A stretch of 64,000 bases of DNA from Methanomassiliicoccaceae archaeon (lineage in GTDB: Archaea; Thermoplasmatota; Thermoplasmata; Methanomassiliicoccales; Methanomethylophilaceae). The stretch covers positions 62,001 through 126,000 of the forward strand of contig JAEEOP010000001.1 of the NCBI GenBank assembly GCA_016284295.1. The letters run 5' to 3'. Positions 36,394 to 49,249 of the stretch are shown here, one piece after another. The stretch's first letter is position 1; the number at the start of each line of letters is the position of its first letter. The notes under the pieces were generated by a model, which saw nothing but the letters and a program-made list of their open reading frames with translations, made no database searches and had not been told where the DNA came from. The position numbers and the translations under genes were made by a program.

Positions 36394-36413
36394 CCGTTGC
36401 TTTCCGAGCGGAC

Positions 36414-36422
36414 AGTTTATTA
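36414..36422 (+). promoter_or_regulatory. TATA box of CobN4
   Basis: GTTTATTAT lies about 27-30 bases ahead of the ATG at 36448, fitting a leaderless transcript. The shared dyad is not recognisable upstream of it, unlike at CobN1 and CobN3. Confidence 0.45.
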
Positions 36423-36447
36423 TCCTGTCAATTGGTCCAGTCATCCA

Positions 36448-39400
36448 ATGACCACGTTGAGAATAGTCTACATCTCCATCCAGAGTGCGGATTCCAGCAC
36501 CATGAAGGTCGCCGCGGACACGTTCCGGGAGACCACCGGCATCGATGTGGACCTCTTCCATGCCAATGCGGAAGCGATAGACGACGACCCTCTGCTCTAC
36601 CACGACCTCGTACTGAGATCCAAGGCGGCCGACCTGGTGCTCATAAGGTGCATGGCGGACCCCACCAGGATGAAGAGGTTCGAGAAATACGAGCAGATTC
36701 TGGAGGAGTGCCCGGGGTATGTGATGATACACTCGGGGAGCAACGAGGTCGGACTCCTCTACAGGAGGCACTTCAAAGGATCCGATGACGATTTCTTCCT
36801 GCTCAGGACCTTCATGAACAACAGGACCAGGGAGAACGATGTGGGCATCATCCACTGGCTCCGCAACCGCGTCACCGGCGAAGGTGCGGTACCAGAGCCG
36901 ACCACCAGCAGGGAGAACGGGATCTATCACCCCGATTTCCCGAGGAATGTGACGCTGGAGGATTATCTGAAGCACATGGTCCCCGGAAGGCCCACCGTGG
37001 GGATACTGTACACCTCGAATCTGTGGATCTACGACAACCAGGAGCACATCACCGAGCTGATAAGGAAGCTGGAATCCATCGAGGTCAACGTCATACCGGT
37101 GTTCTTCAGCACCCTCATCCACAACGCGGAGGACCGCCAGGGGACCGTCGGCGTGGTGGAGAAGTACTTCATGGACGGGAATAAGAGCAGGGTGGATGCC
37201 ATCGCCGTATGCACGGCATTCTCGCAGATCAACAACTCCAGGGACTGCTACGGGATATACACCCCCGACGAGCAGAACTTCTTCCACACCCATACCGACG
37301 TCCCTGTCATGCAGGTCATGTCCGTCGGCGGGCATTATTCGGATTACGAGGAGAGCGCCCAGGGCCTGAGCAAGGCCGAGTTCAACATGAGCGTCATCTG
37401 GCCGGAGCTGGACGGACAGATAATCACCGTCCCCATCGCGAGCAACGAGGGCGGCAGAGGGATGAAGAGGTACAGCCCCATAGAGGACAGGATCGACCAT
37501 CTGGCGAGGATGATCAAGTCCTGGGCCGTCATATCCTCGATACCCCGCTCCGAAAGGAGGATAGCCATCCTGATGTACCAATCCCGCCCGGAGACCGGGC
37601 GCATCGGCGGGGCCGCCGGGCTGGACAGCATCGAGAGCGTCAGCGACATGCTGAAGAGGTTCGACACGGAGGGATACACCGTCGACCACGTCCCCGAGAA
37701 CGGGAAGGCGCTGATCGACGAGATCATAGACAACATCACCAACGACCTGGAGTGGTCCTCTCCGGAGAGGATCAGGGACAAGGCCGTCGCGCTCATAGAC
37801 AACAAGGACTACCTGAAGCATTACGATAGAATTTCAGAATTCAACAGGAGGCGCATGGAGGAGAGCTGGGGCGAGCCCCCGGGATCGATATCCGTCGAAT
37901 CCGGCAAGTTCGTCATACCGGGCATAGTGAACGGGAACATCTACATCGGTTTCCAGCCCCTGAGGGGCTGGGCGGAGCAGATGGAGGCCGTGTACCACGA
38001 CCCCGTCATCCCATGCCAGCATCAGTACCTGGAGTTCTACAGGTGGCTGAAGTACGATTTCAAGACCAACATCGTGTTCCACATAGGGACGCATGGATCG
38101 CTGGAATGGCTGCCCGGGAAGAGCCACGGGCTGTCCTCCAAGTGCTTCCCGGACCTTGTCCTGGACGGGATTCCCCACATCTACCCGTACATCATAGACG
38201 ACCCCGGAGAGGGGGTCCAATGCAAGAGGAGGTCGGAGGCGGTGCTCATAGGGCACATGTGCCCCACCATGACCCGCGCGGGGACCTATGAGGACCTGTC
38301 CTCGATAGAGCTGCCCCTGCAGGAATACTTCAAGGCTAGGAACACCGCATCTGACGAACGCATAACCGCCCTTCTGGAGCAGGTGCTGGATGGGATACGC
38401 AAAACGGACATGTTCGGCGAGCTTGGGATACCGCAGGATGCGGACACCGAGGTGCTGAAGGGCCAACTGGAGCACCTACACGACTACCTGATGGAGCTGA
38501 AGGACGCCATGATCAGGGACGGGCTCCACATCCTCGGGAGGGCGCCCGAAGGGGAGCTCCTGGACGAGACCGTGTACGGATTGATGAGACTCCGCAACGG
38601 CGACGTCCCGTCGCTCAGGGCGGAGTACTACCGCTCGCTCGGATACGATCTGGAGGCGATGCTTGCATCGCCCTCGGAAATGTCCAGAGAAATGCTGAAC
38701 AGCGAAAGGGTCGATGAGATGGACGGGGAGATCATGTCCATCCTCGCAGGCATCAGGGAATCGGGTTACGATCTCGAGAGATCTATCAAACTTTTCCCGA
38801 AAATGACCGACGACTTGAGACAGTCCGTCGAATACATCTGTAATACATTATCACCCAACATCATGAGGATGACCGACGAAATGGACAACCTCATGCACGC
38901 ATGCGACGGCGGGTACGTCCTTCCTGGACCGTCGGGGGCGCCCACCAGGGGCAACGCGCACATATTCCCGATGGGAAGGAACTACTACGGCATCGACCCG
39001 GACATCGTCCCTCCAAGGTCATCGTGGGAGATCGGGAAGAGGATGGCCGACCAGATGATACAGCGCTACATAGACGACAAGGGTTGCTATCCCAGGGAGA
39101 TCGCATTCATCATCTGGGCCACAGACACGATAAAGACCAACGGCGACGACGTCGCCTACATCCTCTGGCTGATGGGCGTCAGGCCTGTATGGTCATCCAA
39201 CGGAGGGCAGGTCACCGGCCTGGAGGTCATACCGGTATCCGAGCTGGGAAGGCCCAGGATCGACGTGACCGTCCGTATAACAGGGCTGTTCAGGGACGCG
39301 TTCCCGAACCTCATAGACCTGATAGATGATGCGGTCCACATGGTCGCAGAGCTGGACGAGTCCGAGGACGACAACTACCTCGCGGCCAACCTCAGGAGGG

Positions 39401-40185
39401 ACATCGTCGAATCCATGGCGGACGGCATGACCGTCGACGAGGCCAGGAAGGCGAACTCGGTCCGCATATTCGGGTGCCCGCCCGGAGGGTACGGGGCAGG
39501 GGTGAACTACGCCATCGAATCCGGCGATTGGAAAACGATGCAGGACCTTGCCGACATCTACATCACCTGGGGCAGCTACGGCTACGGACGCGGAATGTCC
39601 GGGGTGAGCATGAGGGACCAGTTCGTGAAGAGGTTCAGCAAGGTCGGCGTCACCGTCAAGAACGTCCCCGACAGGGAGATAGACGTGCTGGACGTGGATG
39701 ACTTCTACTCATATCTGGGAGGGCTCAACGCTTTCGTGAAGACGTACGGCAACAAGGACGCCATCTCCGTCATGGGGGACGGCTCCGACCCGGACAAGGT
39801 GAAGATCAGGGATTCGAAGGAGGAGCTGCAGTTCGTCTACAGGAGCAAGATCCTGAACCCCAAGTTCATCTCAGGCCTGAAGAACCACGGTTTCAGAGGA
39901 GTCTCGGAGGTGGCCAGCCTCACCGAGTTCACGTTCGGATGGGACGCCACATCCGACATCGCCGACGACTGGATGTACGAGGGGCTCGCCGAGAAGTACC
40001 TCTTCGACGACGACACCAGGCAGTGGATGGAGGAGAACAACCCCCATGCGATGATGGAGATGATCAACCGCCTGATGGAAGCGTACGACAGAGGGATGTG
40101 GGATGCAAAGCCTGAGACGCTGCAGAAGCTGAAGGACCTCTATCTCGACCTGGACGAGAGGATCGAGGAGCTCCAAGACAGATGA
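36448..40185 (+). CDS. CobN-type metal chelatase large subunit (CobN4)
   Basis: A CobN/BchH family protein of about 1245 residues. The frame is open from 36397, but the ATG at 36448 (MTTLRIVYISIQSADSS) matches the paralogue starts and follows a TATA box at leaderless distance. Hallmarks are HIGTHGSLEWLPGKSHGLSS, PYIIDDPGEGVQCKRR, GPSGAPTRGNAHIFPMGRNY, WATDTIKTNGDD and FGWDATSDI. GPSGAP replaces the GPSGCP of CobN1 and CobN2, so a conserved Cys is missing. It follows importer C and the Fe-S protein and converges on importer D, meeting its ATPase stop at TGATCA. Confidence 0.9.
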   Translation: MTTLRIVYISIQSADSSTMKVAADTFRETTGIDVDLFHANAEAIDDDPLLYHDLVLRSKAADLVLIRCMADPTRMKRFEKYEQILEECPGYVMIHSGSNEVGLLYRRHFKGSDDDFFLLRTFMNNRTRENDVGIIHWLRNRVTGEGAVPEPTTSRENGIYHPDFPRNVTLEDYLKHMVPGRPTVGILYTSNLWIYDNQEHITELIRKLESIEVNVIPVFFSTLIHNAEDRQGTVGVVEKYFMDGNKSRVDAIAVCTAFSQINNSRDCYGIYTPDEQNFFHTHTDVPVMQVMSVGGHYSDYEESAQGLSKAEFNMSVIWPELDGQIITVPIASNEGGRGMKRYSPIEDRIDHLARMIKSWAVISSIPRSERRIAILMYQSRPETGRIGGAAGLDSIESVSDMLKRFDTEGYTVDHVPENGKALIDEIIDNITNDLEWSSPERIRDKAVALIDNKDYLKHYDRISEFNRRRMEESWGEPPGSISVESGKFVIPGIVNGNIYIGFQPLRGWAEQMEAVYHDPVIPCQHQYLEFYRWLKYDFKTNIVFHIGTHGSLEWLPGKSHGLSSKCFPDLVLDGIPHIYPYIIDDPGEGVQCKRRSEAVLIGHMCPTMTRAGTYEDLSSIELPLQEYFKARNTASDERITALLEQVLDGIRKTDMFGELGIPQDADTEVLKGQLEHLHDYLMELKDAMIRDGLHILGRAPEGELLDETVYGLMRLRNGDVPSLRAEYYRSLGYDLEAMLASPSEMSREMLNSERVDEMDGEIMSILAGIRESGYDLERSIKLFPKMTDDLRQSVEYICNTLSPNIMRMTDEMDNLMHACDGGYVLPGPSGAPTRGNAHIFPMGRNYYGIDPDIVPPRSSWEIGKRMADQMIQRYIDDKGCYPREIAFIIWATDTIKTNGDDVAYILWLMGVRPVWSSNGGQVTGLEVIPVSELGRPRIDVTVRITGLFRDAFPNLIDLIDDAVHMVAELDESEDDNYLAANLRRDIVESMADGMTVDEARKANSVRIFGCPPGGYGAGVNYAIESGDWKTMQDLADIYITWGSYGYGRGMSGVSMRDQFVKRFSKVGVTVKNVPDREIDVLDVDDFYSYLGGLNAFVKTYGNKDAISVMGDGSDPDKVKIRDSKEELQFVYRSKILNPKFISGLKNHGFRGVSEVASLTEFTFGWDATSDIADDWMYEGLAEKYLFDDDTRQWMEENNPHAMMEMINRLMEAYDRGMWDAKPETLQKLKDLYLDLDERIEELQDR

Positions 40186-42225: not shown

Positions 42226-43389
42226 TCAGTTGGCGGAGTTCCTGGTATCGATGCCCGCATCAACGACCGCTGTCGCGTTGCCGTCGGCGTCAAACTGGAC
42301 GTTCCATGTGTAGGTCTCAGTCTTCTTGGGGAAGCCGTACTTGGACTCGTACTGCTTGGCGAGGTCCTTGACGGAGTAGCCGGTATAGATGCCGATTATC
42401 TCACCGAGGGACACGTATGCGATGTAATCCATGGGCCCGGACAGCAGGTCACTGTCGATCACGAACACGTTGCTGTCGGTGCCGTCGATGTAGCTGAGCT
42501 TGTACTGGTTCACCGCGTTCTTGTTCCACTTCGCCAGAAGGGCGTCTGCCTGGTCGTCGCCGGATGCCCTGAGGATGAGCAGGTCGATGTGCTTCTTCGC
42601 ATCCAGCTCCACGAGCCTCTCATAGAGACCGTCCTCGCTGGCCTTGTTGGTGGCGGAGTTGGTGGATGCGCCGATCTCGGTCAGTGCGTTCTTCCCGTAG
42701 ATGCTCTCGATGGTCCTGCTGACCTCAGCGGTCTTGTTGTAGAACGCCTGGATTCCCATGAAGCAGCAGAGGAACAGGTTGTCATCCGTGGGCTTGGCCT
42801 TGGAGAGGACGGCGTTGACAACATCGTTCCTGACATCGAGGTATTCGTCGAAGGCCGCCTTGACCTCCTTGGTGCTTCCAAAGATCTTCACGAGCTTCTC
42901 CATGTCCTCGATCATCGTGTCGCCGTAGCAGTCGAGCTTGATTATCGTGATGTTCGCGTTCCTGCAGGCGTTCTCGACGCTGGTGCTGAGAGGGCTGCTG
43001 TTGATGGGTTCGATGATGTATTTGACGCCGTGGGACTGGAAGTACTCCGCGTTGGTCAGCGTGCTGTAGAGGGGCGTGTCCTTGGTGATGTTGTCGAATC
43101 CGGCGTCGTGGAAGTAATCGTACTTGCTGGACTTGTAGAACATGATCTCATCGACCTTGTTCTGCAATCCGAGGATCTTCATTGCCGTGGGGATGTGCGT
43201 GTTCACCACATAGCAGGACTCCAGAGGTCCGTCGAGGTGGATGCTGGCGCCCGACCCGTCAACTATGTCTATACCCGTGGTGGGTTTAGGGTCATCTCCA
43301 CCGCCGTTGTTGGTCATCACATATGCCGCTACCGCTGCGATCGCAACGATCGCGACTATAGCCAGTATGATTGCTGTGGTTCTGTTCGT
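42226..43389 (-). CDS. Importer D substrate-binding protein, apparent ACG start
   Basis: A BtuF/FepB-class binding protein. The frame from the first internal ATG (43320) lacks an export signal, but in-frame codons upstream encode a full anchor (TTAIILAIVAIVAIAAVAAY). No ATG, GTG or TTG exists in that frame before the anchor, and a TGA stop lies 15 bases before the ACG. The best start is ACG at 43389-43387 (ACG AAC AGA ACC), six bases after an AAGGT. A start here gives 387 residues, like the paralogues. The alternative is a one-base frameshift joining the ATG pair near 43410. A TATA box (TTTTTATATAC near 43445) leaves a leader of about 30 bases. No dockerin-like repeats are present. Confidence 0.78.
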   Translation of the reverse strand, partial: TNRTTAIILAIVAIVAIAAVAAYVMTNNGGGDDPKPTTGIDIVDGSGASIHLDGPLESCYVVNTHIPTAMKILGLQNKVDEIMFYKSSKYDYFHDAGFDNITKDTPLYSTLTNAEYFQSHGVKYIIEPINSSPLSTSVENACRNANITIIKLDCYGDTMIEDMEKLVKIFGSTKEVKAAFDEYLDVRNDVVNAVLSKAKPTDDNLFLCCFMGIQAFYNKTAEVSRTIESIYGKNALTEIGASTNSATNKASEDGLYERLVELDAKKHIDLLILRASGDDQADALLAKWNKNAVNQYKLSYIDGTDSNVFVIDSDLLSGPMDYIAYVSLGEIIGIYTGYSVKDLAKQYESKYGFPKKTETYTWNVQFDADGNATAVVDAGIDTRNSAN

Positions 43390-43810
43390 GCTATTACCTT
43401 CTCAATCATCATCAGATTGTCTGAATAGTGAGCAGAAAAACGATGTATATAAAAATGAATGATTGTGATTTTTCATATGCTGGATATATAAAGAGAACTG
43501 AGATTTCGTTAAGATGTGATAATACCAATATTAATTTTAGTAACACTTAATACTATACCCCCCTATGGTTTTACTTAATTCTTTATATATTTTGGATGTA
43601 TGCCCCATCCCCCTAACCCCAATAAGTTAGAACGGATTCCACTTGATTTTTAATACTGTGAGAGGAAAACAGCCGAATCTGATTAGAAATCGGACAAACC
43701 AACTATACGATCGCCTCAAAGTTTCATTATTATGCAAATGAGAAAAGCGACGGCGGACGGTCGGAAATGATGAAATAATTGACGGGAACATTGTATAGCA
43801 CTTCACAATC
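43390..43810. other. A+T-rich gene-free interval
   Basis: About 420 bases with no plausible gene. It holds the minus-strand promoter of the importer D binding protein and several TATA-like runs (TATATAAAG near 43487, CTTTATATATT near 43581). The composition changes abruptly to G+C-rich at about 43870, inside the structured RNA. Short tracts such as TATACCCCCCTATGG near 43555 are visible, but I cannot assign them. Confidence 0.5.
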
Positions 43811-43819
43811 TATAAATAT
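43811..43819 (+). promoter_or_regulatory. TATA box of the large structured RNA
   Basis: TATAAATAT on the plus strand is a near-ideal archaeal TATA box. It predicts a transcript start near 43838-43845. No good reading frame begins within 100 bases downstream, so it most likely drives the non-coding RNA. Confidence 0.6.
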
Positions 43820-43837
43820 TTCTTAGATGTCGGTAAT

Positions 43838-44580
43838 CTCATCTAACACATCTGGTACTCAAGCAGTATTAGACATCCGGTAACGGGTGGTTAGAGCGTA
43901 CCCCGGTCGTAAGGCCTGGGTGGGACCTGAAAGGCAGAGGTGGGCGCGGCATCGCGTTGGCCTGGGCCTGTAGGCGCGCGAGCGCTTCAGGTTACGCGTG
44001 CGCATAGCAAGGGCCGCTCATGTGGCCTGTGGGGCGCATAACCCCAGCTATTGTGCGGAGTTCGGCCCAGAGATGGGTGCTGAACGGAAAAGGCAGTGGC
44101 AGGCGTCAAGCCAGCAAAGGAGACGCACCTTTGGCCTCGAGCGATCGGGGTGGGAGAGATCCCCGTCCACTGTGACCCGCGGCCGCCGCAATGCGGTCGT
44201 GGGCGTGATGCGAGTACGGGCGGAAAGGCCCGGAAGGCGGAGCAATCCGCAGTCCACCAGAGGGATGCATCATGGAGCATCGGGGCGTGTGGAGACATGC
44301 GCTGTGCGGTGACGTGCTGGTCGGGTAAGCCCGGCCGTCGGTGCGATAGGCGGGTCCACAGGGCAACTTGTGGGGAGCGAGCGAACCTCCCAAAAAGGCC
44401 CCCCTACGTGTGGTCGGCAAAAAAATCCCCGGTGAAATCCGGAGCAGCGTTAAAGCCGCGGACCATGCGGAACAAACGCGTCGGTGCAGCGATGCGCCGG
44501 TGGCAGGTGTCAAACCTGCACTCTACGGAGTCGTGGAGTGCCTTCAAGCGCTCCCCCCTGGGCTCTGCCCGGGGGATGAT
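43838..44580 (+). ncRNA. Large structured RNA, family not recognised
   Basis: About 740 bases, strongly G+C-rich inside A+T-rich flanks, with a TATA box ahead and an end hairpin behind. Frames on both strands are short and low in complexity. I can draw consecutive perfect or near-perfect hairpins with GNRA loops at 43909 (GTAA), 43978 (GCGA), 44070 (GAGA), 44188 (GCAA), 44242 (GCAA), 44363 (GCAA), 44434 (GAAA) and 44489 (GCGA). Further hairpins are at 44285-44300, 44319-44336, 44503-44519 and 44519-44540. Closing stems join 44000-44007 with 44048-44056, 44094-44099 with 44167-44172, and 44206-44211 with 44267-44272, so it is multibranched. SRP RNA and RNase P RNA were considered and do not fit. 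Ends are approximate. Confidence 0.75.
44554..44575 (+). terminator. End hairpin of the large structured RNA
   Basis: CCCCC, a bulged T, then GGGC-TCT-GCCC and GGGGG form a nine-base-pair stem, followed by ATGATTTCTC. It is the last strong hairpin of the G+C-rich region and resembles the G+C hairpins found after other genes in this window. Confidence 0.5.
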
Positions 44581-44598
44581 TTCTCATCAACTTCACAA

Positions 44599-44666
44599 TC
44601 ATCGATCCGTATCGATGACATCATGATCAATCATGGACCAAACATGATAGTTCGATACGGTTCAAC
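44599..44666. repeat. Inverted repeats between the structured RNA and the Sel1 gene
   Basis: TCATCGAT-CCGT-ATCGATGA (44599-44618) is a perfect eight-base-pair stem-loop. Its centre, CCGTATCGA, is repeated in inverted form as TCGATACGG near 44655. Together they form alternative hairpins in the convergent spacer and may stop transcription from both sides. Confidence 0.4.
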
Positions 44667-46745
44667 TCACTGAACAGGATCATTTAGATCGGAGTCCTTG
44701 CCGCTGTCCTTGTCATCCTCGGAATCGTTACCGTGGTCCGTACGCTTCCTTCTGCGCTCAGCACGGATATCCCACTCGGTGACGCGGGTCTTCGCATCGC
44801 GATTGCCGCATTCAGCGGCCATCCTCATGTACCTGCGGTACTCATCCACGTTGGGCTCCACGAAGATGCCGTCCTTGTAGAACAGGGCCATGCGGTACAT
44901 GGCCGAAGCATCGCCGTACTCCACAGCGCTCCTGATGAGATCGAACGATTCCTGAGTATTCTCCTTGGTCTCGCTATGCTCCACGATCATGTCCGCCAGC
45001 CTCACCCTGGGCCCTCCGCCGGCGAGTGCGGCCTTGCTCTGCAGGTCGAACGCACCCTTCAGGCTCTTCTTGAAGCCCTTTCCCTGCTCGTACTTCGTTG
45101 CGAGCCTGGTCATGGACTGGGGCTGATAGGTGCGGGACATCGCCTTCAACAGGTAGTTGCTGACATCGAAGTCCCCTTTGCGGGCCTTCAGTGTCTCCAT
45201 GGCGGACTTGCGGGAATCGTTCAGTATGGAGTTGGAGTAGATGCCGAACCACTTCTTGGCCTGCTCCACATCCTTCTCCGTGCCGATGCCGGAATCCAGC
45301 ATGGATGCGACCTGATACTGGGATCTGGAATTCCCTACCAGAGCGGACATCATGTACCATTTGAACGCCTCCTCTGGATCCTTTTTCATGAACTTGCCGT
45401 CCATGTATAGGTCCCCCAGCATGTACATCGCCTTGTTGTGGCCGTTCTCAGCCGCCCTCTTCAGATGCCTGATGCATTTCTCCAGGTCCCTCTCGACGCC
45501 GTTGGCGTCGCGGTACATCTGCGCTATGAGGACGTCCGCATCGCTCCAGCCGATCTCGGCGGCCTTCTCCAGGTATTCCAGGGCCTCCTTGTAATCCCCG
45601 GTCGTGATTGCGGACCTGTACATCAGGTTGCCGTAGTTGTAATAGTCATAGGGGTAGCCGCTGTCACAGAATCCCTTCATGAGCTCCCTGAGCCCCTTGA
45701 TGTCCTCAAGGACGTCGCTCTGCAGGGATGCGTACTTCCTCCTGGCCTCGAAGTTTCCGGCCTCCGCCGCCCTTTGGAACAGGACAAGGGCCTCTTCCTC
45801 TTTGCCTTCGGACATCACGATGTTGGCCAGGTCGTTGAGGGCCATCGGGTGGTCCCTGAGAGCGGCCTGCTCCAGCCACCTCCTCATCTCCGCCGGGTCC
45901 TTCTCCACCCCGATCCCGTCGCGGTAGAATGTGGCGAGCCTGTACTGCGCTGATGAGGACCCATCGTTGGCCAGGTGCAGCGTCTCCTCGAAGGACTCGT
46001 TTATGGAACGCGAGTATTCGTCGACGATCTCGTCCGCGGGACCGTCCATCTTGATGGTGCGGTCCGAGATCCATACCGCACGGTTGCATGTGCGCTTGAT
46101 CGTGTTCATGCTGTGGGATGTGAACAGGACTGTCTTCCCGGTGCGGACCAGACTCTTCAGGTGCTCTGACGCCTTCTGAGCGAAGGCCATGTCCCCTGTG
46201 CTCAGGGCCTCGTCCACCAGGAAGATGTCCGCGTCCACATTGATCATGACCGAGAACGCCAGGCGCGACCTCATTCCGGAGGAGTACGTCCTCACGGGGT
46301 TGTCTATGAAGACACCGAGATCGGAATACTCTATTGCCCTTTCGAGGTGCTCCATGATCTTGTCCCTCGGGATGCCGTAAAGCTCGCTCCTGAGGATGAT
46401 GTTGTCCCTTCCGGACATGTCGTTGTGGAAACCCATGCTGAGCTCCAGGATGCTCGCAACCTTCCCCTTGACCTCTATGGTCCCCTCGTCCGGCTCTATG
46501 ATGCCGGAGATCATCTTGAGGAAAGTGCTCTTACCGCATCCGTTGCGTCCGAGGATCCCGACTATGTCCCCTCTCCTGACCTCCAGGTCGATGTTGTCGA
46601 ACACGGGGTACTGGATCCTCTTGACGAAACCCAGCCTGCTCTTCTTCTGGTTGGGATCCAGGATCGTGTAGGACTTCTTCATCCCCTTGACCCTGATCAC
46701 CACATCGTCGTCCGCCGGGGCGGGCATGCCGTCGATCTCGGTCAT
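44667..46745 (-). CDS. ABC ATPase (TagH-like) fused to Sel1 repeats
   Basis: A 692-residue protein starting at the ATG at 46745 (MTEIDGMPAPADDDVV). Residues 15-250 form an ATPase of the polysaccharide/teichoic-acid export type: Walker A GRNGCGKST, signature YSSGMRSRL, Walker B IFLVDEALSTGD. From about residue 270 to 670 it carries Sel1-type TPR repeats, such as SAQYRLATFYRDGIGVEKDP, KAMYMLGDLYMDGKFMKKDP and SQYQVASMLDSGIGTEKDVE. The end is charged and disordered. In known TagH/Wzt relatives the C-terminal domain binds the exported polymer, so here the repeats may recruit a protein partner. It overlaps the permease stop by one base. Confidence 0.87.
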   Translation of the reverse strand: MTEIDGMPAPADDDVVIRVKGMKKSYTILDPNQKKSRLGFVKRIQYPVFDNIDLEVRRGDIVGILGRNGCGKSTFLKMISGIIEPDEGTIEVKGKVASILELSMGFHNDMSGRDNIILRSELYGIPRDKIMEHLERAIEYSDLGVFIDNPVRTYSSGMRSRLAFSVMINVDADIFLVDEALSTGDMAFAQKASEHLKSLVRTGKTVLFTSHSMNTIKRTCNRAVWISDRTIKMDGPADEIVDEYSRSINESFEETLHLANDGSSSAQYRLATFYRDGIGVEKDPAEMRRWLEQAALRDHPMALNDLANIVMSEGKEEEALVLFQRAAEAGNFEARRKYASLQSDVLEDIKGLRELMKGFCDSGYPYDYYNYGNLMYRSAITTGDYKEALEYLEKAAEIGWSDADVLIAQMYRDANGVERDLEKCIRHLKRAAENGHNKAMYMLGDLYMDGKFMKKDPEEAFKWYMMSALVGNSRSQYQVASMLDSGIGTEKDVEQAKKWFGIYSNSILNDSRKSAMETLKARKGDFDVSNYLLKAMSRTYQPQSMTRLATKYEQGKGFKKSLKGAFDLQSKAALAGGGPRVRLADMIVEHSETKENTQESFDLIRSAVEYGDASAMYRMALFYKDGIFVEPNVDEYRRYMRMAAECGNRDAKTRVTEWDIRAERRRKRTDHGNDSEDDKDSGKDSDLNDPVQ

Positions 46746-47548
46746 CACAGCACCTCCGGAAGCTTCTTCTCGTAATGGAAGAACACCCATGCGCCTATGA
46801 TCAGCGCTGAGGTCGTCAGGATCAGGCTCATGGCCAGGTACTCCACGTGCGGGAATATACCGTAGTACAGCAGGTCGTGGAAGGTCTCCACGTAGTAGGT
46901 GAACGGATTCCACCATACTATGGTCCCCAATAATCCCTGGGCCTCGCTGGCCAGAAAGAAGGTGGGGGTGATCCATATGACCAGCCTCATGAACACGTTC
47001 ATGAAGTACCCCACATCCTTGACGAACACCGTCACCGTGGATATCGCCATGGAGCATCCTATCGAGAACAGCAGCATCAGCAGCAGCTCTATCGGCAGTA
47101 TGATGAAACCGATCCAGTTCACATACTGACCCGAGAGCATGATGATCATGATGATGAACATGTATGCGAAGATCACGCCCAGGAAATCCGTCAGGACCGA
47201 TGCTATGACCACGATCTCCCTTGGGAACTTCATCTTGGTTATGTACTGGGCCCCCCTGGTTATCGCATTGCCCCTGAGGCTGTTGGATATGAACGTCACA
47301 GGGAACATTCCAGCCGCCAGATAGATCCAGAAGTCCTCCAGAGGACGGGGCCTGATGTAAGTGAATGTGATGGTGAGCACGGCTATGGTCAGAAGAGGGA
47401 ACAGCATATGCCAGATGAAGCCGACGTATGTGCTCTTGTAACGGCCTGCGGTATTCCTCCTGATCAGGGCCAGCAGGATCCCCCTGTTCTCGTGCACGTC
47501 CCTCATGGACTGCGCCATCCTTGCGAAGAGGTTCATCATGTCACACAC
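46745..47548 (-). CDS. ABC-2 permease, polysaccharide export type (TagG/Wzm-like)
   Basis: A 267-residue membrane protein with six hydrophobic spans. The family entry region RRNTAGRYKSTYVGFIWHML and the late WWNPFTYYVETFHDLLYYG are typical of TagG/RfbA/Wzm exporters. It partners the Sel1-fused ATPase that follows and overlaps the LRR surface protein ahead of it by eight bases. It likely exports a surface glycan or glycolipid. Confidence 0.88.
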   Translation of the reverse strand: MCDMMNLFARMAQSMRDVHENRGILLALIRRNTAGRYKSTYVGFIWHMLFPLLTIAVLTITFTYIRPRPLEDFWIYLAAGMFPVTFISNSLRGNAITRGAQYITKMKFPREIVVIASVLTDFLGVIFAYMFIIMIIMLSGQYVNWIGFIILPIELLLMLLFSIGCSMAISTVTVFVKDVGYFMNVFMRLVIWITPTFFLASEAQGLLGTIVWWNPFTYYVETFHDLLYYGIFPHVEYLAMSLILTTSALIIGAWVFFHYEKKLPEVL

Positions 47549-49130
47549 CTCTGAAGATCCTGATGATCATGAGCAGGACGATGATGCATATGGCCACCAC
47601 GATAAGGTTCTCGTACGGATACGGGCGCTCTCCCAGATTCTTCACGTCCAGGGTGGTGTAGTCGCCGGTGACGGCGTTGGTCGGTATAGTGTAGGTCTTC
47701 AGCTTGGTCACCTTCACGGTCACCGGATTGGTCTCGGAACCTATCTCCAGGGCGCCGTCATCCAATTCGATCTTGTCGCTGAGCAGCTCTATCTCCTCCA
47801 CTACAAAGGACCCGGCCATTATCCCGAATCTCAGCGATGCTTCCGAATCCTCGGGCACTGTGAACTTCTTGAGGCTCTTGCAGTTGGAGAAGCTCAGGGG
47901 ATCCACCGTCTGCACGGATGCCGGCAGCGTGACCTCCTCCAGCCCAGTTTGGCAGAATGCGTTGTACCCTATGGACACGAGCCTCTCCGACATGACGACC
48001 GTCTTCAGATTGGTGCAGCCGTAGAAGGCTCCGTCGCTGACGATGACGATGTGGCTGATGTCCACCTCCTCCAGGGACTCGCTGTTGAGGAACGCATTGT
48101 ACGGGATGATCTGGATGGTGTCCGGCAGGACGACCTTCTTGAGATACTGCGTTTCGTTGAAGGCCTCGGGCCATATCTGCGATACCTGGTAATCCAAGAC
48201 GAACTCGCTGTCGGTCTTTCCCGAGGGGTACATCATCAGGGTCTTGTAGTCGTCGCCTGTCTCGTACAGCACTCCGTCCAGGGAGGTGTACTTCTGACCG
48301 CCTCTCACATCTATGTATTCCAGATTCTTGCACCCTCCGAATGCCGACATGCCTATGTCCAACACCTTGCCGGGGACCGTGACATGCTCGATCGCGGTAT
48401 CGTAGAACGCATTGGCACCGATGATCCTGAGACCTTCAGGGAGCAGGACCGTACAGAGGTTCTCGCAGCGGGAGAAAGCGCCCTCGTCTATTATGGAGAC
48501 CGACGTCGGCAGGATGTTCATCTCGCCAATCGGATTGATGGACCTCAGATTGCTGCAGCCCTCGAACGCATATGCGCCTATGTCCATGAGACCCTCGTTG
48601 AGCAGGACCTCCTCCAGGGCCAGATTGCCGGCGAAAGCGAAATCATCGACGGTCGAGACCGTCTCAGGGAACTCGTAGCTCAAGAGGGCCTTTCCCTTCG
48701 GGAACATGACCAGGGTGCGCATCTTGTCATCGAACAGGACGCCGTCCTTGGAAGAATAGGCCTCGTTGCCCTCCTCCACCAGGATATCGCTGATGTTGGA
48801 CCCTAAGAACACGGTGGCGATGTACGGCATGCCCAATATCGTTGAAGAGACGGTCACCGATCTGATCACATCGCTCTGATACATGCAGTCGAGCACGGTG
48901 ACCGTGTAGGTCACACCGTCATGCACGACGTAGGACGGGGTCACCAAGTGCTCGACCGCCAGAGCATTATCGAACTCCACGGCCTCGAGGGCCGTTCCGC
49001 CGAGTATCTTGTAAGTATAGCCGCCTTCTACGAAATACGTCTCATCCTCCGCATCGGAATCCGACAGGAAGAACGGGACGACGACAATCGCCACGACTAT
49101 AAGAGATGCGATCAGAGTACGATAACCCAT
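47541..49130 (-). CDS. BspA-like leucine-rich repeat surface protein
   Basis: A 529-residue membrane protein. The ATG at 49130 (MGYRTLIASLIVVAIVVV) is preferred over the GTG at 49172, because a GTATTATTA box lies 25 bases ahead of it. A signal or anchor helix covers residues 4-21. The exported body contains about ten repeats of the BspA/TpLRR type, such as VSTVDDFAFAGNLALEEVLL, LMDIGAYAFEGCSNLRSI and LRIIGANAFYDTAIEHVTVP. The C-terminus is a membrane helix (LIVVAICIIVLLMIIRIF) with a short basic tail. Proteins of this type are common in gut and rumen microbes and mediate adhesion. It is in an operon with a glycan exporter. Confidence 0.88.
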   Translation of the reverse strand: MGYRTLIASLIVVAIVVVPFFLSDSDAEDETYFVEGGYTYKILGGTALEAVEFDNALAVEHLVTPSYVVHDGVTYTVTVLDCMYQSDVIRSVTVSSTILGMPYIATVFLGSNISDILVEEGNEAYSSKDGVLFDDKMRTLVMFPKGKALLSYEFPETVSTVDDFAFAGNLALEEVLLNEGLMDIGAYAFEGCSNLRSINPIGEMNILPTSVSIIDEGAFSRCENLCTVLLPEGLRIIGANAFYDTAIEHVTVPGKVLDIGMSAFGGCKNLEYIDVRGGQKYTSLDGVLYETGDDYKTLMMYPSGKTDSEFVLDYQVSQIWPEAFNETQYLKKVVLPDTIQIIPYNAFLNSESLEEVDISHIVIVSDGAFYGCTNLKTVVMSERLVSIGYNAFCQTGLEEVTLPASVQTVDPLSFSNCKSLKKFTVPEDSEASLRFGIMAGSFVVEEIELLSDKIELDDGALEIGSETNPVTVKVTKLKTYTIPTNAVTGDYTTLDVKNLGERPYPYENLIVVAICIIVLLMIIRIFRGV

Positions 49131-49249
49131 AGGTAGCCATGGACTCCCGTTAATAATACGTTTTTGCACCAAATTTAGCCAGACCTAAGGACATAACGCT
49201 CAAATACGGCCCCATCCTACAGTTGACTTATCAACTAAGGAGCATTCGG

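Follow-up and report, generated by a model that had tools for sequence, protein, structure and literature searches.

The window, by which we mean the whole 64-kb stretch of archaeal DNA analysed here, contains an intergenic island of about 740 bases that is not within any gene and has a GC content of 60-70% from about 43860 to 44560, against flanks of 25-40% GC. Its left neighbour encodes a FecB-like binding protein, a name based on the FecCD permease and ATPase encoded next to it, as the protein itself has no Pfam match. The right neighbour is a convergent gene for the ATPase of an ABC-2-type exporter, to which a long Sel1 repeat domain is fused (henceforth Sel1/ABC), which is followed within 44667-49172 by genes for an ABC-2 permease and a BspA-like leucine-rich repeat (LRR) protein. 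The interval given in a sequence-only reading of this DNA, 43838-44580 with a TATA box, an end hairpin and G+C enrichment, proved correct: the TATA box is at 43810-43817, the first helix at 43842 and the end hairpin at 44554-44575, with the RNA bounds being approximate (start about 43838-43842, end about 44575-44588). In what follows G0xx, L0xx and C34 are working labels for genomes, loci and contigs respectively, with G000 being the genome of the window. The features of the locus are:

36397..40185, plus strand: CobN-type chelatase gene; homologues also adjoin the RNA in G017, on the other side
starting near 43320, minus strand: FecB-like binding protein gene, left neighbour
43810..43817, plus strand: TATA box CTATAAAT, 32 bases ahead of the first helix
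43842..44588, plus strand: predicted large structured RNA (fold z -7.1, strand-specific folding, 9 GNRA hairpins, GC island)
43842..43895, plus strand: 5' three-way junction, pair probabilities 0.97-1.0, architecture as in the type-2 relatives described below
43842-43847/43890-43895, plus strand: helix P1 of the 5' three-way junction
43851-43859/43865-43873, plus strand: hairpin hp1 of the 5' three-way junction
43874-43879/43884-43889, plus strand: hairpin hp2 of the 5' three-way junction, GUAA cap
43901..43920, plus strand: hairpin hp3 (CCC, C.U mismatch, GGUC-GUAA-GGCC, GGG), from local fold and comparison
43938..43963, plus strand: hairpin hp4, GCAU cap at 43949-43952 as in the C34 copy and G059a, pair probability 0.99
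43972..43987, plus strand: GCGA-capped hairpin, from predicted pairing and GNRA count
44011..44028, plus strand: UCAU-capped hairpin, pair probability 0.96
44060..44085, plus strand: hairpin with a possible GAGA cap (44070-44073), from predicted pairing and GNRA count
44176..44203, plus strand: 11-bp hairpin, pair probability 1.0
44204..44274, plus strand: domain with an 8-bp closing stem CGUGAUGC/GCAUCAUG, pair probabilities 0.72-1.0, enclosing a GCAA hairpin (44237-44250) and GGGC-GGAAAG-GCCC
44277..44344, plus strand: four-way junction with GAGA (44284-44303), GUGA (44304-44317) and 44318-44337 hairpins, pair probabilities 0.7-0.9
44347..44406, plus strand: junction with a GCAA hairpin (44357-44372) and the hairpin 44373-44391, pair probabilities 0.77-1.0
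44429..44442, plus strand: CCGG-UGAAAU-CCGG hairpin, whose hexaloop recurs in hp3 of G058a and G056
44482..44519, plus strand: GCGA hairpin (44482-44499) and T-loop-like hairpin GCAGG-UGUCAAA-CCUGC (44503-44519), pair probabilities 0.97-0.99
44554..44575, plus strand: terminal GC-rich hairpin CCCCC-U-GGGC-UCU-GCCC-GGGGG, a possible 3' end, from sequence and z -4.4 for 44525-44674
44667..46745, minus strand: Sel1/ABC gene, right neighbour, convergent

The predicted fold of the whole RNA has an energy of -380.8 kcal/mol, compared with -331.7 +/- 6.9 in dinucleotide shuffles (n=20), giving a z of -7.1. Segments of 150 bases within the RNA show z of about -0.9 to -4.4 on the plus strand and near 0 on the minus strand, with the exception of the symmetric 3' hairpin. 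This strand-specific fold signal points to a structured RNA with G-U pairs rather than a GC-rich palindromic region. When stems of at least 5 bp with at least 3 GC pairs are required, nine GNRA hairpins are found on the plus strand, in agreement with the earlier estimate of at least eight, and none on the minus strand; the rest of the 64 kb holds at most two per 740 bases (stems of at least 5 bp, 3 GC pairs). A count over almost all of the 1.86-Mb genome, cut into pieces, gave eight for the bin of the RNA and three for the runner-up among 4976 bins of 740 bases on both strands. With stems relaxed to at least 4 bp the plus strand has 11, the minus strand none and the shuffles a mean of 0.2. Well-formed stems are capped by GUAA (43880, 43909), GCGA (43978, 44489), GAGA (44292), GUGA (44309) and GCAA (44242, 44363), to which a weaker GAGA at 44070 and a competing GCGA at 44141 may be added. 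Most of the caps listed in the earlier reading (GUAA, GCGA, GAGA and GCAA) are thus present, with GCAA occurring in well-formed stems twice and not three times, whereas its GAAA cap is actually a UGAAAU hexaloop or a GGAAAG loop. The global minimum-energy fold assigns the hp3 stretch other partners; the local fold and the comparison with relatives favour hp3. The RNA showed no standard 11-nt tetraloop receptor, and the ORFs tested inside it have no Pfam match.

The fold z, the strand specificity and the mechanical GNRA counts together indicate that this GNRA-dense RNA is real and unique in its own genome, where a check of other long ORF-free stretches found no second GNRA-rich RNA. Three other long regions, C28:37874-39388, C45:57814-58929 and C38:154086-154956, contain no ORF that reaches 110 codons and fold unusually stably on both strands; they have no Rfam match over the island and might represent leaders, repeats or other RNAs.

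A search of the whole 64-kb window against Rfam at gathering thresholds (cmscan) returned one tRNA and nothing else, and a permissive scan of the RNA region, up to an E of 10, returned chance-level matches only. The Rfam 15 library, which we take to include models of ROOL, GOLLD, OLE and HEARO, gave no match of these four to the window RNA at E up to 10, nor among the relatives scanned; group I and group II intron models did not match the window RNA either. Its size, GNRA loops and high GC would be compatible with a diverged RNase P RNA, SRP RNA, group I/II intron or rRNA piece, the former two being likewise large archaeal structured RNAs with GNRA loops. Unlike the window RNA, however, the archaeal RNase P RNA (RF00373) and SRP RNA (RF01857) of the same genome are recognized with full scores at other sites (C28:5552, 204 bits, and C34:173, 178 bits), and with no match beyond chance even at E 10 a diverged known RNA is extremely improbable. 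The claim that the RNA is outside the known families therefore holds, and the fold, the GNRA excess, the absence of an Rfam match and the covariation in the 5' junction of the relatives described below support the proposal of a new large structured archaeal RNA. On the predicted fold, the locus encodes a genuine, undescribed RNA of this kind.

Searches with the window RNA as a blastn query recovered no relative in the 146 other genomes of the order, and no match in 102 family genomes, 147 order genomes, phages and plasmids. Exact patterns of the window RNA were not found in genome contigs, and three exact patterns were absent from viral contigs (whole-genome searches covered the order, and pattern scans covered larger collections). 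Following the right-hand Sel1/ABC gene to its orthologues pointed to G059 and G017, which have an ORF-poor GC island at the same place, and these islands used as queries retrieved G060 and G056 (G059 versus G060, 64.5% over 340 nt, promoter included; G017 versus G056, 75% over 75 nt). Folding the 5' ends of G017 and G056 yielded a three-way junction, and one can also be drawn for G059 and G060. Two covariance models were built from two sequences each, namely R2 (type 1, from the G017/G056 junction) and R3 (type 2, from G059/G060). R2 detected G004, G064 and two loci of G058 among 147 genomes at E 4e-10 to 4e-7, and the exact type-1 pattern, scanned over 84,980 species genomes, hit most of these genomes again, plus two extra G004 copies and nothing real elsewhere. 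R3 detected a copy in the genome of the window itself (C34, 28305-28359, minus strand, E 2.3e-5) and a second G059 locus at E 0.1, which was accepted because an AT-rich promoter-like stretch lies ahead of it and it opens an ORF-poor GC island. In all there are 12 further loci, with strong covariation in the 5' junction of both sequence types, or 13 in 8 genomes including the window copy, with one to three copies per genome. The relatives come from the same archaeal family as the window; those with names are rumen Methanomethylophilaceae, such as the goat-rumen MAG RGIG3602, and the Thermoplasmata MAGs SIG2, SIG4 and SIG8. The very fast evolution of the family accounts for its having been missed by ordinary similarity searches and by Rfam.

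Several candidates were discarded. Weak matches to a third model (R1, from the middle part, 44198-44346) were short or lay in coding/UTR sequence; an Elusimicrobia match to the type-1 pattern (L107) resembles coding sequence and fails the model; and weak R2 matches in G001, G092, G063 and G129 have 5' ends without the conserved core. Orthologues of the FecB-like gene in G050, G054 and G055 have no such RNA upstream.

The relatives share an order of elements in which an AT-rich promoter region is followed by the three-way junction and then by a hypervariable body of hairpins with GNRA, ACCAC or tRNA T-loops. TATA-like AT-rich stretches lie upstream of them at a distance similar to that in the window copy. 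In the type-1 junction (8 sequences) 94.6% of the cells are paired and 11 of the 23 pairs have changed on both sides, whereas sliding the alignment by 1-3 columns lowers the pairing to 24-47%. In type 2 the corresponding values are 88.9% and 5 of 16 pairs, with no pair changed on both sides once the alignment is slid. These compensatory changes show that the 5' module is under selection; they were measured on the 5' junction of the relatives and not on the stems of the window RNA, as the searches found no sequence close enough to align with it. The type-1 module also has invariant unpaired bases, GUCGACCG and GGAGACUUGG, such that model R2 reads CCAAG...GUCGACCG...GGAGACUUGG. The G004 paralogues L103 and L106 can be aligned over about 700 nt, with hairpin loops kept and stems changed (e.g. 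GGCCUA-GCGA-UAGGCC to AGCUGA-GCGA-UCGGCU). Apparent lengths range from about 280 to 1220 nt, with 3' ends placed by the next gene or by eye. The caps occur nearly always on the RNA strand, including the GNRA caps (11 in the window RNA, 6 in G017 and 5 in G004b, with stems of at least 4 bp), ACCAC/ACCAA loops (4 each in G056 and G058a) and tRNA-type T-loops (3 in G004a and 2 in G058b).

The bodies show several further peculiarities. T-arm-like motifs (TTCRA with a 5-bp stem) are present, on the RNA strand only, in several relatives (L087:220-680, L090:6200-6888, L092), and the G004 RNA region contains two tRNA-model matches (30.8 and 42.4 bits), which gives the impression that the RNA has absorbed tRNA genes or what is left of them. 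A hairpin repeat, ACCAGCTTGTACCACCACGGTACGGCTGGGTCAT, is found in tandem about four times in the body of L089 (G058:C17), and a 90-nt unit twice in that of L073 (G056), suggesting fast growth through duplication. In L103 and L106, from RGIG3602, a module of the form GGGGUGUCCGCG-hairpin-CGGC-GYAA/GUCAAA-GCCG occurs several times per RNA, and L106 differs from L103 by an insertion of roughly 79 nt. The second large type-2 RNA of the window genome (C34:27470-28360, minus strand, L099; about 5270-6360 in L101) adjoins a tyrosine-phosphatase-like gene, as does the type-1 RNA of G064 (28% identity).

As judged from shared architecture and position, the window copy is likely to belong to this new family. 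Just downstream of the TATA box, its 5' elements follow the type-2 order: P1, hp1, GUAA-capped hp2, hp3 and a GCAU-capped hairpin. Its hp3 consists of 3 bp, a 1x1 mismatch and a short stem closed by a GNRA-type loop, and matches in position and shape that of type 2 (CCG, mismatch, CC-GUCAA/GCGA-GG, CGG). A type-2 descriptor of the junction and hp3 has six matches in 3.7 Mb (both strands of the window's own genome), comprising the C34 copy, the exact 5' end of the window RNA (43842-43920) and four scattered ones; it also matches G059a and G060, and none of 20000 shuffles of 43830-43929, a rarity that is partly circular, as the descriptor was written after the window fold and the relatives had been seen. 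The local alignment of the first 270 nt with the C34 copy is weak, being reached by 21 of 3000 shuffles, and a control alignment with the reversed C34 copy is reached by 95 of 1000. MAFFT could not place the window RNA with type 2, and neither R2 nor R3, the latter built from two sequences, gives it a score. It might be a genuine large structured RNA of a class separate from the 12 relatives, with the junction and the neighbours being convergent and the intergenic spot tending to receive such RNAs. The miss by both models, the 11 GNRA caps against 0 to 6 in any relative found and the differing orientation at the shared site in G017 would fit such a class. Against it stand the rarity of the descriptor and the weak collinear alignment with the C34 copy. 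Beyond the first 270 nt the bodies of the window RNA and the C34 copy are unalignable, but this is expected, as the bodies of the proven relatives are not clearly alignable either. On this evidence we regard a separate class as rather unlikely.

Taken together, these observations suggest that the locus probably specifies a stand-alone, untranslated RNA of about 740 nt with its own archaeal promoter, which would be a divergent representative of a large structured RNA family not described before. The RNA would be transcribed from the TATA box and remain untranslated. Its constant 5' module, the P1/hp1/hp2 three-way junction followed by hp3, would form a conserved nucleus, and the body of junctions and hairpins would be tolerant of change and free to evolve fast. 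The many GNRA and T-loop-like caps may dock into helices, in which case the RNA would be compact and might associate with itself, as a particle or scaffold resembling ROOL and GOLLD. As GNRA loops and T-loops make tertiary contacts, a compact particle or scaffold is the most likely reading, although we put forward the RNA particle, taken alone, as a tentative possibility. More speculatively, the family might be one of large archaeal RNAs that are hypervariable and multi-copy, share a constant 5' junction, gather hairpin and tRNA-like modules in their bodies and assemble through GNRA loops and T-loops into RNA-only particles; such a class could, equally speculatively, be the archaeal, chromosomal equivalent of the phage RNA cages.

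The gene neighbourhoods bear on three other explanations. In the window, as in G059 and G017, a Sel1/ABC gene adjoins the RNA; the window and G059 also have in common the LRR gene that follows it, and the orientation of the RNA among its neighbours is reversed in G017. The neighbouring exporter genes prompt the idea of an OLE-like ribonucleoprotein scaffold, in which dedicated proteins are bound, for instance at the membrane, and GNRA loops mainly stabilize the RNA. The constant 5' module with the invariant unpaired type-1 bases, the adjacent ABC transporter ATPase with Sel1 repeats and the finding that genomes with close Sel1/ABC orthologues are largely the RNA-bearing ones are consistent with such a scaffold. 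This co-occurrence may merely reflect shared ancestry, and unrelated genes adjoin most copies, which argues against a protein partner linked to the locus in general; we hold the scaffold to be a serious but minor contender.

The RNA-bearing genomes have between one and three copies, placed at different sites, the orientation at a shared site differs, and the bodies include tandem hairpin repeats in G058a and G056 and near-tRNA pieces in G004. These features could alternatively reflect an RNA that does nothing for the host, either a mobile or satellite-like element or a trap in which tRNA-like and hairpin cassettes have been inserted. Such an element seems unlikely, as there is no ORF of a known kind, phage and plasmid records contain no match, the three patterns are absent from viral contigs, and compensatory changes attest to selection on the 5' module. 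The G058a and G058b copies lie upstream of a gene on the same strand, as would a cis-acting leader or riboswitch, but in the window the right-hand gene is convergent and the downstream genes vary between copies, making a leader very unlikely.

The preferred reading, a stand-alone member of a new RNA family, invites comparison with the known ornate RNAs. ROOL is carried by bacterial phages and prophages, and ROOL and GOLLD form RNA-only homo-oligomeric cages. The phage setting of these RNAs was not found here, in that the window RNA lies on an archaeal chromosome, phage records contain no match and there is no tRNA island at the window RNA; the only tRNA in the 64 kb is 16 kb from it, and the relatives in G004 and G056 are beside tRNAs. 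The ROOL RNA with a solved structure has 659 nt, comes from the cow rumen, is stand-alone and highly branched and has no known function, and its linker shows little similarity between homologues (PMC12286853). The window RNA is likewise stand-alone, large and highly branched, but in contrast to the phage- and prophage-borne ROOL its family resides on archaeal chromosomes in several copies. Many GOLLD members exceed 800 nt; these are large, branched RNAs of unknown function, often near tRNA islands and sometimes with tRNAs within the linker region, and OLE, ROOL and GOLLD all self-assemble (PMC12286853). The tRNA association recalls the relatives described here, which carry tRNA T-arm-like pieces, whereas GOLLD is phage-borne, the present family is archaeal, and the window RNA itself lacks a canonical TTCRA T-arm. 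OLE is a well conserved RNA acting in a membrane ribonucleoprotein complex of Gram-positive bacteria (PMC9723947, PMC12265935, PMC12054373). At about 600 nt it resembles the window RNA in being an elaborately structured, stand-alone noncoding RNA, but the new family changes at a very high rate and no one protein gene accompanies its loci throughout.

OLE, ROOL and GOLLD belong to a small group of large structured RNAs whose function is unknown, and we found such RNAs described in bacteria and their phages only; our literature search found no paper on large RNAs in these archaea. The 13 sequences and the two covariance models provide a ready set for further searches and for tests of self-assembly. 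A family of such RNAs in rumen archaea, with multiple copies per genome, near-unrecognizable bodies and a selected 5' module, would extend the ornate RNAs to another domain of life.
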